From contig JACRNC010000021.1 of NCBI GenBank assembly GCA_016219375.1, positions 62,001 through 126,000 of the forward strand: 64,000 bases of DNA. The letters are read 5' to 3'. The position numbers were made by a program, and so were the translations under genes. Positions within the stretch are counted from its first letter, which is position 1, and the number at the start of each line of letters is the position of its first letter. The notes beneath the pieces were generated by a model. The model was not told the origin of the DNA, searched no databases, and saw nothing but the letters and a program-made list of their open reading frames with translations. Positions 31,653-34,953 of this stretch are shown piece by piece. This DNA is from Burkholderiales bacterium (lineage in GTDB: Bacteria > Pseudomonadota > Gammaproteobacteria > Burkholderiales > Burkholderiaceae_C).

Positions 31653-31759
31653 GGCGGGCGACTGGGGTGACCGGCTCCGTTCATGTCCTCCGCCGCTCGC
31701 CCTGGCGGGCGCCCGGCTCCCCCTTTACTTCACTGCGCCAGTCACCCCAGCCACCCGCC
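31653..31759 (-). repeat. Hairpin module A-left, in the cbbL-cbbS spacer
   Basis: A 107-nt imperfect palindrome read on the - strand, the same sense as the cbb mRNA. The outer stem is CTGGGGTGAC / GTCACCCCAG (10 bp perfect), extended by a 3x3 internal loop and GGCGGG / CCCGCC. Inside is the family core GCAGTGAAGTAAAGGGGGAG, an inner hairpin (GCCC / GGGC around GCCA) and the second core block GGAGGACATGAACGGAG. It pairs head-to-head with module A-right 57 bp away. The bases between the cbbS start and this module (31585-31652) show nothing else. Confidence 0.88.
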
Positions 31760-31816
31760 AGTCCACCGGCGGTGCACTACGAAGAGAGGAGCTTTCATGG
31801 GCCTGCGGCGGTGCCT

Positions 31817-31928
31817 GGATCGGGATGCCAGGGGGCTTCCCGCAGCGAAGTAAAGGGGGAGCCCGAGGCCGCCATGCGGCATCGGGCGGAGGACATGAGC
31901 GGAGGGAAGCCCCCTGGTAGCCCGATCC
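31817..31928 (+). repeat. Hairpin module A-right, in the cbbL-cbbS spacer
   Basis: A 112-nt palindrome read on the + strand. Arms 31817-31841 and 31904-31928 pair over 25 bp with two mismatches (GGATCGGG...GGGGGCTTCCC). The core GCAGCGAAGTAAAGGGGGAG follows at 31842, then an inner hairpin CCCGA-G-GCCGC-CAT-GCGGC-A-TCGGG, then GGAGGACATGAGCGGA. The outer arms differ entirely in sequence from module A-left while the core is almost the same. It ends 36 bp before the cbbL stop codon. Confidence 0.9.
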
Positions 31929-31964
31929 CCGCTCCGACCTCAGCAGTCAGCAGTCAGCAAAGAA

Positions 31965-33461
31965 TCAAGCCGCCACGCCCGGCGTCACGGCGTAATCCGA
32001 CGTATCCGTCGGCGCGTAGTTGAAGGTGATGTCCCCCCAGGTATCCAGCGCCTGCTTCAGCGGCGTGCAGAACTGGGCGGCCTTCTGCAGGATCTCCGGC
32101 CCTTCGTTGGCGATATCGCGCCCCTCATTGCGCGCCTTGACCATCGCCTCCAGCGCCACGCGGTTGGCGACCGCGCCGGCCTGGATGCCCTGCGGGTGGC
32201 CGATCGTGCCGCCACCGAACTGCAGGATCACGTCGTCGCCGAACAGGTCCAGCAACTGGTGCATCTGCCCCGCATGGATGCCGCCGGAGGCCACCGGCAT
32301 GACCTTGCGGATGTCGGCCCAGTCCTGATCGAAGTGCAGGCCGCGCGGCAGGTCGCGCTTGGTGTAGCTGTCGCGGCAGACGTTGTAGTAGCCCTGCACC
32401 GTCATCGGGTCGCCCTCCAGCTTGCCCACCGCCGTGCCGGCATGCAGGTGGTCACAGCCGGCCAGGCGCAGCCACTTGGCCATCACGCGGAAGCTCACGC
32501 CATGCGACTTCTGCCGCGTGTAGGTGCCGTGCCCCGCGCGGTGCATGTGCAGCACCATGTCGTGCTTGCGACACCAGTTGGCCATGCTCTGGATCGCCGT
32601 CCAGCCGATGACCAGGTCGATCATGATCACCACCGAGCCCAGCTCCTTGGCGAACTCCGCGCGCTCGTACATGTCCTCCATCGTCGCGGCCGTCACGTTC
32701 AGGTAGCTGCCCTTGACCTCGCCGGTGGCGGCTGTGGCCTTGTTGACCGCATCCATCACGAAGAGAAAGCGATCCCGCCAGTGCATGAAGGGCTGCGAGT
32801 TGATGTTCTCGTCGTCCTTCATGAAGTCCAGCCCGCCCTTGAGCCCTTCGTAGATCACGCGGCCGTAGTTGCGGCCGGACAGCCCCAGCTTGGGCTTGGT
32901 GGTCGCGCCCAGCAGCGGGCGGCCGAACTTGTCCAGGCGCTCGCGCTCCACGATCAGGCCGGTGGGCGGGCCCTTGAAGGTCTTCACATAGGCCACCGGG
33001 ATCTGGATGTCCTCCAGCCGGCAGGCCTTCAGCGGCTTGAAGCTGAAGACGTTGCCGATCAGGCTGGCCGTCATGTTGGCGATCGACCCTTCCTCGAACA
33101 GGATCAGGTCATAGGCCACCCAGGCGAAGACCTGCCCCGGGTTGCCCGGCACCGGCTCCACCTTGAAGGCCTTGGCGCGGTAGCTGTCGCAGGCGGTCAG
33201 GCGGTCGGTCCAGACCACCGTCCATGTCGCGGTTGACGACTCGCCGGCCACGGCAGCGGCGGCTTCCACCGGGTCCACGCCGTCCTGCGGCGTGATGCGG
33301 AACAGGCACACCACGTCGGTGGCCTTGGGCACGTAGTCGGCGTCCCAGTAGCCCATCTGCCGGTACTTGAGGACACCGGCGCTGTAGCGCTTCTTCTTGT
33401 CCGTGATGGCGGCATCGCGGCCGGGGTCGTTGACGACGCCTGCTTCGACGGGCTTGTTCAT
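31965..33461 (-). CDS. cbbL: RuBisCO large subunit, red type (form IC)
   Basis: Catalytic subunit fixing CO2 onto ribulose-1,5-bisphosphate. The 498 residues contain catalytic K189 in TTKPKLGLS, carbamylated K215 in [17 protein letters not shown], the [20 protein letters not shown] segment with active-site His, and loop 6 in [13 protein letters not shown]. The N-terminus ([23 protein letters not shown]) and the extended C-terminus are red-type form IC. An AAAGGAG precedes the ATG. It is first in the operon and divergent from cbbR across 138 bp. Nothing suggests inactivation. Confidence 0.97.
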
Positions 33462-33552
33462 GGGGCGCGCTCCTTTGGGCGGGGATGGGAAGGACGGTGG
33501 GCGGTACGGCGGGATGACTGCTCGGGATGGCCCACTCTAGGCAGCGCCTACG

Positions 33553-33576
33553 CTCAGATAAATTCAGAAGTTCATA
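33553..33576. promoter_or_regulatory. AT-rich cbb control region, candidate CbbR site
   Basis: The cbbL-cbbR gap (33462-33599) is GC-rich except for TCAGATAAATTCAGAAGTTC, which contains a repeated TCAGA and AT-rich half-sites spaced like LysR-type T-N11-A sites. CbbR proteins bind between cbbR and cbbL, so this is the most likely operator. The exact footprint cannot be read from sequence. Confidence 0.5.
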
Positions 33577-33599
33577 GGCATCCGTTCAGGAGAAGCTGA

Positions 33600-34544
33600 A
33601 TGAAGGGCGTCACCTTCCGCCAGCTGCGGGTTTTCTCGGAAGTCGCGCGGCAGCTCAGCTTCGTCAGGGCCGCGGAAACCCTGCATCTGACACCCCCGGC
33701 GGTGACGATGCAGGTCAAGGAGCTGGAGGCGCACGTCGGCCTCCCCCTGTTCGAGCGTCAGGGCCGGCAGGTGTCGCTGACCACCGCAGGCGAGTACTTC
33801 CTGGTCTATGCCAAGCGCCTGCTGGCCACGCTCACCGATGCCGACAACACGATGGCGCGCTTCAAGCGCACCGAGACCGGCGTGCTCACGATCGGCCTGG
33901 TCAACACCGCCGGCTACTTCCTGCCGCGGCTGCTGGCGCGCTTTCGGCGCGACCACCCGGGCATCGAGCTGCGCATGCAGGTCACGCACGACAAGCAGCG
34001 CCTGCTGGAGCGGCTGACCGGCCACGAGATCGACCTGGCCATCACCGGCCGCCCGCCCAAGGAGCTGGGCCTGCGCAGCGAGCCCTTCGCCGCGCATCCG
34101 CTGGTCTTCGTCTGCCCACCGGGCCATCCGCTGCTGTCGGTGGGCCACCCGCCTGCCCTGGCCCTGGCCAATCAGCCCATCGTCACCCGCGAGCCCACGG
34201 CCGAGATCCGCCAGGCGATGGACGCCTTCCTGCGCGAGCAGCGCGTGTCCCCGCGCGTGTTCATGGAGCTCAGCAGCAACGAGACCATCAAGCAATGCGT
34301 GATCGCCGGCCTGGGCGTGGGCTTCCTGTCGCTGCAGGCGGCGGGGCTGGAGATCACGACCGGCGTGCTCAAGATCGCCGCGGTGGAGGGCACGCCGGTG
34401 ATGCGCGCCTGGCATGTGGTGCACCTGATGTCGCGGGTGCTGTCACCCGCGGCAGAGGCGTTCCGCTACTTCCTGCTGGAGGAGGCGGAGGCGGATCTGG
34501 CTTTGCAGGATGCGCGGTTGATGCAGGTCGCATCGGGGTCTTGA
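33600..34544 (+). CDS. cbbR: CbbR, LysR-type activator of the cbb operon
   Basis: Transcription factor that activates Calvin-cycle genes, usually responding to RuBP, NADPH or phosphoenolpyruvate. The 314 residues have an N-terminal winged helix (FRQLRVFSEVARQLSFVRAAETLHLTPPAVTMQVKELE, in family order) and a periplasmic-binding-like effector domain (LTIGLVNTAGYFLPRLLARF, ITGRPPKELGLRSEPF, GVGFLSLQAAGLEI). An AGGAGA precedes ATG 33600. It is divergent from cbbL as in other autotrophic proteobacteria, and is followed by the second hairpin pair. Confidence 0.95.
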   Translation: MKGVTFRQLRVFSEVARQLSFVRAAETLHLTPPAVTMQVKELEAHVGLPLFERQGRQVSLTTAGEYFLVYAKRLLATLTDADNTMARFKRTETGVLTIGLVNTAGYFLPRLLARFRRDHPGIELRMQVTHDKQRLLERLTGHEIDLAITGRPPKELGLRSEPFAAHPLVFVCPPGHPLLSVGHPPALALANQPIVTREPTAEIRQAMDAFLREQRVSPRVFMELSSNETIKQCVIAGLGVGFLSLQAAGLEITTGVLKIAAVEGTPVMRAWHVVHLMSRVLSPAAEAFRYFLLEEAEADLALQDARLMQVASGS

Positions 34545-34593
34545 AGGCTCAGCGTCGGTTTGCCTGCGCCTTTGCATTCGAAGATCTGCGCGA

Positions 34594-34769
34594 GGCAGGC
34601 GACTGGGGTAACCGGCTCCGTTCATGCCAGGGCGCAGAGGCCCTGGCGCTCGCCAGGCACGAACAGTCCACTGGACTGTTTGTGTCCGGGCTCTCTCCCC
34701 CGCCATGCGCCCTGCCGGGCGCCCGGCTCCCCCTTTACTTCACTGCGCCGGTCACCCCAGCCACCTGCC
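34594..34769 (-). repeat. Hairpin module B-left with internal insertion, downstream of cbbR
   Basis: Second copy of the left-type module, 176 nt, read on the - strand. The outer stem CTGGGGTGACCGGC / GCCGGTTACCCCAG has one G-T pair; GGCAGG / CCTGCC extends it beyond a 3x3 internal loop. Compared with module A-left, GGCGGG / CCCGCC has become GGCAGG / CCTGCC, a compensatory change. The first core block is unchanged, but about 70 nt are inserted before CATGAACGGAG. The insert contains a perfect 9-1-9 palindrome (AACAGTCCA-G-TGGACTGTT). Confidence 0.88.
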
Positions 34770-34843
34770 ATTCCATCGCTCGTGGCCTACCTAAAGCAAA
34801 CACGTGGCGCTTTCTCAGACGCACGCCAATCACAGCAACGATG

Positions 34844-34953
34844 GATCGGGCTGCCAGGGGGCTTCTCGCAGCGAAGTAAAGGGGGAGGCCGATGCCGCCA
34901 TGCGGCATCGGACGGAGGACATGAGCGGAGGGAAGCCCCCTGGTAGCCCGATC
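34844..34953 (+). repeat. Hairpin module B-right, downstream of cbbR
   Basis: Second copy of the right-type module. Arms 34844-34865 and 34932-34953 pair over 22 bp with one G-T pair. The core GCAGCGAAGTAAAGGGGGAG is followed by a perfect 10-bp inner hairpin (CCGATGCCGC-CAT-GCGGCATCGG) and GGAGGACATGAGCGGA. The inner stem differs from that of module A-right but stays paired. The rest of the 585-bp cbbR-bktB gap (34954-35129) holds only a possible -10 TATACT at 35042 and the bktB ribosome-binding site. Confidence 0.9.

Follow-up and report, generated by a model that had tools for sequence, protein, structure and literature searches.

The window analysed here is a 64,000-nt stretch of a Burkholderiales bacterium (assembly GCA_016219375.1, contig JACRNC010000021.1, positions 62,001 to 126,000) that contains cbbS (31144-31584, -), cbbL (31965-33461, -), a LysR-type, cbbR-like gene (33600-34544, +) and a thiolase gene (35130-36314, +). 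These gene names were read from translations, no family search being made, and codon-score gene calling gave identical intervals. Between these genes lie four hairpin modules that form two twin elements, (-)(+), in each of which two modules stand head to head with their 5' sides facing. Twin element 1 (31653-31928) lies in the 380 nt that separate cbbL from cbbS, and twin element 2 (34594-34953) is found between the LysR-type gene and the thiolase gene. The original prediction, made from the letters of the window, had described four modules that share a core, an inner hairpin and an outer stem; all four were found where it had placed them. They are not four independent hairpins, and the twin arrangement, the signs of mobility, the insertion between genes and the covariation inside what had been taken for a core loop had escaped it.

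In what follows G000 is the window's own genome, whereas other G numbers indicate genomes and L numbers indicate loci used for comparison. An alignment of 83 distinct modules of 97-108 nt (A1) was made and the covariance model R1 was built from these 83 modules. A second alignment (A2) was obtained by fitting the best 150 of 174 matches to the model and has 149 distinct rows.

Twin element 1 starts with a (-) module of the CTGGGGTGAC stem type at 31653-31759, recognised by sequence, fold and an R1 match of 85.7 bits, with core strand 1 at 31717-31737, the inner hairpin at 31692-31716 and core strand 2 at 31675-31691. The spacer at 31760-31816 (59 nt if the stems are counted as 22 bp) is followed by a (+) module of the GATCGGG/CCAGGGGGC stem type at 31817-31928 (sequence, fold and 93.1 bits at 31819-31926), in which core strand 1, inner hairpin and core strand 2 lie at 31841-31861, 31862-31887 and 31888-31904. 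In twin element 2 the (-) module at 34594-34769 is again of the CTGGGGTGAC type and represents an extended subtype (R1 match of 55.7 bits); its core strand 1 lies at 34727-34747 and the end of its core strand 2 at 34616-34626. Beyond the spacer at 34770-34843 follows a (+) module of the GATCGGG/CCAGGGGGC type at 34844-34953 (sequence, fold and 96.2 bits at 34845-34952), with core strand 1 at 34867-34887, inner hairpin at 34888-34913 and core strand 2 at 34914-34930. As had been predicted, the outer stems are of two types, each of which pairs, and GGCGGG/CCCGCC in one copy is GGCAGG/CCTGCC in another. Both core strands are uninterrupted in three of the four modules; the interruption of core strand 2 that had been noticed in the remaining copy, 34594-34769(-), amounts to 69 additional nucleotides, the strand reading GGGGGA, the 69 nt and then CATGAACGGAG. 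We also noted that GGAGGACATGA, found at 31888-31904 and in other core strands 2, looks like a ribosome-binding site (RBS) with overlapping start and stop codons behind it.

Read on the GAAGTAAAG strand, each module has an internal core with an inner hairpin, held within an outer stem of approximately 22-24 bp. RNA folding of this strand gave z values of -8.5 (31653), -7.8 (31817), -9.5 (34844) and -7.7 (34594), and for each module none of 200 shuffled sequences folded as well. The opposite strand, tested for two modules, folds worse (z of -4.5 for 31653 and -7.1 for 31817), and DNA folding parameters prefer the same strand for the three unextended window modules. Standard pairs occupy 94.7% of the 2682 A1 cells and both sides have changed in 31 of 33 pairs. 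The A1 covariation score of 0.843 is far above those of the controls (shuffled mean 0.191, slid controls at most 0.145), which ignore relatedness, and this supports the selected RNA or single-stranded DNA (ssDNA) fold that had been proposed.

The strand on which the fold is kept can be read from the imperfect pairs of the outer stems. In 108 modules (2376 cells) we counted 2072 Watson-Crick pairs, 204 G-U, 13 A-C and 87 others, with pairing maintained over about 22 positions and then falling off; several of the loci are orthologous and these counts are not independent. Since G-U outnumbers A-C by 204 to 13 the fold was assigned to the GAAGTAAAG strand. At tandem sites of the first set of classified twins (see below), outside G223, G-U:A-C is 63:3 in modules that are sense to the host genes (n=30) and 51:2 in antisense modules (n=33; Fisher p = 1), and G223, counted apart, shows 32:1 in its type A and 39:1 in its type B modules. 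The fold is preserved on the module's own strand, independent of the direction of the host messenger RNA (mRNA). DNA too tolerates G-T better than A-C, hence the excess fits ssDNA and RNA alike.

The core is structured and not a floppy loop. It typically reads AAGGRGGAG ... GGRGGACA, purine-rich, beside a tandem G.A motif. Among the 149 rows of A2, pair 40.87 is G.A in 73, A.G in 67, A.A in 7, C.G in 2 and G.G in none; pair 28.97 is C-G in 124, T-A in 19 and something else in 6; pair 32.93 is A-T in 135, G-C in 12 and something else in 2; and pair 39.88 is G.G in 144 and A-T in 5. Pairs 28.97 and 32.93 enclose two G.A positions, which we take to resemble the tandem sheared G.A motif. Thus, of the constant loop within covarying stems that had been envisaged, the near-constant core and the stem covariation stand, but the loop is not unvarying as the core itself covaries. 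Eight core guanines are nearly invariant across the same rows and, for that reason, a G-quadruplex was considered. However, positions 39 and 88 switch jointly from G.G to A-T, in five A2 rows as well as in 18 of 20 type B modules of G223 (with G-T in one), and since they change together an antiparallel purine-rich helix fits better. In G223, G085 and G876 ordinary base pairs replace the outer core, and the AAGGRGGAG ... GGRGGACA part is mostly retained.

Modules occur as twins. Neighbouring modules separated by less than 400 nt in the examined loci form 95 distinct (-)(+) cases and one (-)(-) case, nothing else; this 95 out of 96, together with stem-to-stem spacers of 32-123 nt (42 twins), corresponds to the dimer layout of REPINs with their spacers of roughly 20-100 bp. 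Placement relative to genes, as called by a custom codon-score script, was classified for 79 of 91 twins, the other 12 (10 + 2) having a flank in which no gene was called; the first-set count also excludes six module matches located close to or at the ends of contigs (L009, L016, L034, L037, L049 and L014 1-53). The 79 twins comprise 63 tandem, 12 convergent and 4 divergent cases, and none lies inside a gene. The first set contributes 57 (48 tandem, 9 convergent, none divergent, none inside genes) and the added set 22 (15 tandem, 3 convergent, 4 divergent). As background we used those gaps of 100 nt or more in the first-set loci that lack the element, which are tandem in 63, divergent in 28 and convergent in 18 cases. 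Divergent sites are therefore under-used rather than excluded, since 4/79 is below the background of 28/109 (Fisher p 1.4e-4) and the added set by itself (4/22) does not differ from it (p 0.59). Three of the divergent cases (L119, L120 and L122) represent the same locus in three different genomes, and in the fourth (L136) an uncalled reading frame ends at the element. The solitary module of L152 also appears to lie between divergent genes.

Copies in other genomes, which had been expected, are present in many genomes according to both pattern and covariance-model searches. The exact core pattern was found in 62 stretches of the GTDB species collection, and by our placement of the record titles these are Betaproteobacteria except for L063 ('Proteobacteria bacterium') and L054 ('Gammaproteobacteria bacterium'); the seed pattern is biased towards GGGGGAG/GGAGG modules. 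A looser pattern matched 16 of 61 genomes, the window's own included, all within the window's genus (37 of the 61), and reversed control patterns matched neither the own genome nor any of the 61. R1 matched 18 of 399 genomes of the order and 4 of 369 genomes of the class, of which G616 and G876 lie outside the order; both scans scored at most 10 candidates per genome under strict filters. With up to 150 candidates scored, module counts were 111 in G223, 25 in G284, 21 in G207, 13 in G003, 12 in G048, 11 in G386, 10 in the own genome (its two extended modules left out) and 4 each in G085 and G359. The element is patchy in distribution. Viral contigs gave no match to the pattern. One twin (L105) lies on a 1.24-Mb Variovorax replicon, in a stretch without annotation, and the remaining plasmid matches are short. 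Among phages, the endolysin gene of a single Rhodococcus phage, present in two records, gave a 26-nt match (E 0.3) that was taken as chance.

Dispersal is evident in G223. An ungapped comparison of 20 of its copies showed modules approximately 95% identical, the spacer 70% and distant flanks 28-29%, with intermediate values for the stretches adjacent to the modules. Two loci were compared with relatives; one comparison drew on 24 of the 33 genomes that gave a match, the other on 24 of 59. The cbbL-cbbS gap (24 loci, 2 unresolved) measures 380 nt in the window genome and 327 nt in G527, with two cores in each, versus 11-139 nt without a core in 20 of the 22 resolved loci; 17 of these 20 gaps have at most 40 nt. 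The proC-yggT gap measures 351 nt and holds a twin in G223, versus -4 to 19 nt in 22 of 23 relatives, the remaining relative (L169) having other sequence in the gap. The twin that occupies the cbbL-cbbS gap of G527 (L196), which belongs to a different genus, has other stems. In L215 and L216 the same gap holds other sequence (139 and 115 nt, respectively) without a core.

The junctions of the G223 copies were inspected by eye. The left end abuts an upstream stop codon in roughly 16 of 21 copies, and at the right end GGAG or GGAA is followed after a few letters by the downstream ATG in 11 of 21. The ends read ATGAAAC.../...GTTTCAT, in G223 and in some relatives, and the junctions often resemble TRRNATG on both sides, the two sides being non-identical in most copies. 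In L143 (1975-2230) of the same genome, the right flank agrees with the 3' portion of a B-type module, starting at GACATG, as though the element had landed in the core of a second one.

Twin architecture, dispersal of near-identical copies, empty sites in relatives and a covarying fold on the module's own strand are all observed. We interpret this as a miniature, REPIN-like mobile element with folded single-strand ends that would be moved by a putative trans-acting factor, a reading to which we assign a probability of roughly 60%; its conjectural parts are that the fold takes part in movement and that such a factor exists. The element would have a pair of hairpin modules, each about 105 nt long, arranged head to head across a short spacer, and would be inserted between genes. 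Each module would act as a folded single strand, RNA or ssDNA, at one end of the element, given that sense and antisense modules are equally well preserved. Because the fold is kept regardless of mRNA direction, its function would be sought in movement of the element and not in the neighbouring mRNA. A putative trans-acting protein may recognise the stem of fixed length, about 22 bp, and the purine-rich core beside the tandem G.A, and might place the element in gaps that adjoin stop codons. Insertion is presumably tolerated by the host operon, as many G223 copies have the upstream stop codon right before them and finish with an RBS-like sequence just ahead of the downstream ATG.

Several established systems provide partial likenesses. 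REPs are described as 20-40 bp palindromes with a GTAG or CGTC tag at one end, and their head-to-head dimers have a similar general layout (PMC3733652). The present twins share with REPINs the two inverted hairpins, the short spacer and an extragenic, multicopy occurrence, and no coding capacity is seen in them. In contrast, the modules measure about 90-110 nt, have a stem of about 22 bp of free sequence and contain a conserved covarying core, and neither GTAG/CGTC nor any other shared tag was found at either end of the 83 A1 modules. A REP/REPIN family moved by RAYT, a Y1 tyrosine transposase, would account for the dimers, yet PF01797 (Y1_Tnp) had no match in the carriers G000, G223 (111 modules) and G207 (21 modules). 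Other carriers have one, and within the genus a match was found in 7 of 16 genomes with the exact pattern and in 11 of 21 without, though the latter may hold diverged modules. Y1/RAYT transposases do not track the element. In kind it resembles REP dimers, yet it departs from them in size, tag and RAYT. Movement by RAYT is in our view very unlikely. Like MITEs and ERIC/RU-like repeats, the element is small, palindromic and intergenic; it differs in that an internal core and not terminal repeats is conserved, and in that no exact target duplication was apparent by eye. A parent transposon or transposase for the element ends was not found either, though no genome-wide search was made for one. MRSC-65-2 is a multicopy structured motif that possibly acts as DNA, with UYCCGG as conserved repeat (PMC11109978), and UYCCGG is absent from the core here. 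Rfam 15 gave nothing above the gathering cut-off for window 31000-35600 and five loci, in line with the earlier failure to match a known RNA family, and at a relaxed E-value gave chance matches far below it. Among the papers listed in the literature searched, with subscription papers and preprints outside its scope, no title or abstract beginning describes the element.

The main rival holds that the twin is a bidirectional RNA element for the neighbouring genes. Its downstream module would be read in sense in either direction of the operon and, once folded, would serve to protect, terminate or process the mRNA, its spread being due to an unrelated or older mechanism. A head-to-head layout always supplies one sense module, and 75 of the 79 classified twins lie downstream of at least one gene. 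Two further observations sit well with it and may count against a purely mobile element, namely that 16 of the 19 G223 tandem copies share their orientation to the operon (by eye) and that G223 modules are better conserved than the spacer (95% versus 70%), which could mean a host-level function. Divergent sites, which do occur (4/79), weaken the mobility reading and the RNA reading alike. Against the RNA element, antisense modules keep their strand-specific fold as well as sense modules do and most relatives lack the element at both compared loci. Moreover, inspection of flanks by eye, which was not a terminator scan, revealed no T-run directly after the 3' arm, for which reason we do not regard the module as a standard intrinsic terminator. 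We consider this rival rather unlikely, but take it more seriously than any of the others.

Integron attC sites are folded single strands with variable stems that are recognised by structure, and the modules could by analogy be recombination sites of a cassette system that carry genes, the short-spacer form being an empty cassette. Widely spaced or interrupted (-)...(+) pairs indeed enclose accessory genes, encoding a CopG antitoxin (L139), DUF2306 (L145), flavin reductase (L146), GST and an ArsR-like regulator (L147) and Fic (L148, with a weak extra module in between). These are only five cases, however, and a Pfam scan of nine proteins between widely spaced modules identified no transposase or recombinase. 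The classified twins have short spacers without a called gene. Unlike attC sites, modules form inverted pairs instead of one site per cassette, and many flanking genes are housekeeping-like according to their translations. Cassettes seem a distinctly improbable explanation. Still less credible is the idea that template switching or gene conversion between the arms maintains perfect palindromes that have no selected function. In a long inverted repeat one arm can be overwritten with a copy of the other, but this would remove G-U and A-C alike and would leave the conserved core and the exchanges within it unexplained; the asymmetry of 204:13 largely refutes it.

Several observations sit uneasily with the mobile element that we prefer. 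No mover was found, PF01797 not tracking the element and the Pfam scan of nine proteins giving no transposase, and the left and right junction letters, read by eye, differ in most copies and give no exact target-site duplication. Layout is not without exceptions either. Besides the one (-)(-) pair, the genome scan adds one (+)(-) and one (+)(+) neighbour pair; 15 of the 149 modules in the first-set placement analysis are unpaired, some of them cut by contig ends; and the four modules found in G085 (three contigs; L151, L152, L153 and L154) are all solitary, one of them after rpsT. Nor is the core exchange at 40.87 strict, with A.A in 15 of 20 type A modules of G223, and L152, which is outside A2, has A39 opposite G88.

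On balance the data point to structured mobile repeats that form an undescribed family. A wider version of this is possible, and we put it forward tentatively: such elements may have two ends that, as folded RNA or ssDNA, serve as receptors built around a non-canonical core, a dedicated mover, stop/start targets (TGATG, TGANATG), accessory cargo and an RBS-like end of their own that rewires translational coupling. The fold is sharply defined, has internal non-canonical pairs that are visible by covariation, occurs in many proteobacterial genera and is unmatched in Rfam 15 at the loci searched. It may therefore provide a handle on how small repeats without a transposase of their own move, and on operon junctions altered by the element, such as cbbL-cbbS. 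The conserved core should make a partner protein findable.

Apart from the standard module there is the extended subtype, which has extra nucleotides inside core strand 2. In the window these form a 69-nt domain of two further hairpins (34627-34695, -). Across copies one hairpin is nearly fixed (ACACAAACAGTCC/GGACTGTTTGTG) and the second covaries. Eight distinct extended copies share the same core site (the window copy, L001, L053, L063, L081, L096, L099 and L193), each of them within a module that has core strand 1 upstream, and in L193 core strand 2 is altered. An independently hopping hairpin was considered and rejected, as all eight distinct copies lie inside modules, and for the same reason the domain is treated as part of a module subtype. 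Its exact pattern has one occurrence each in 5 of the 61 genomes. A long insertion of another kind is present in L055.

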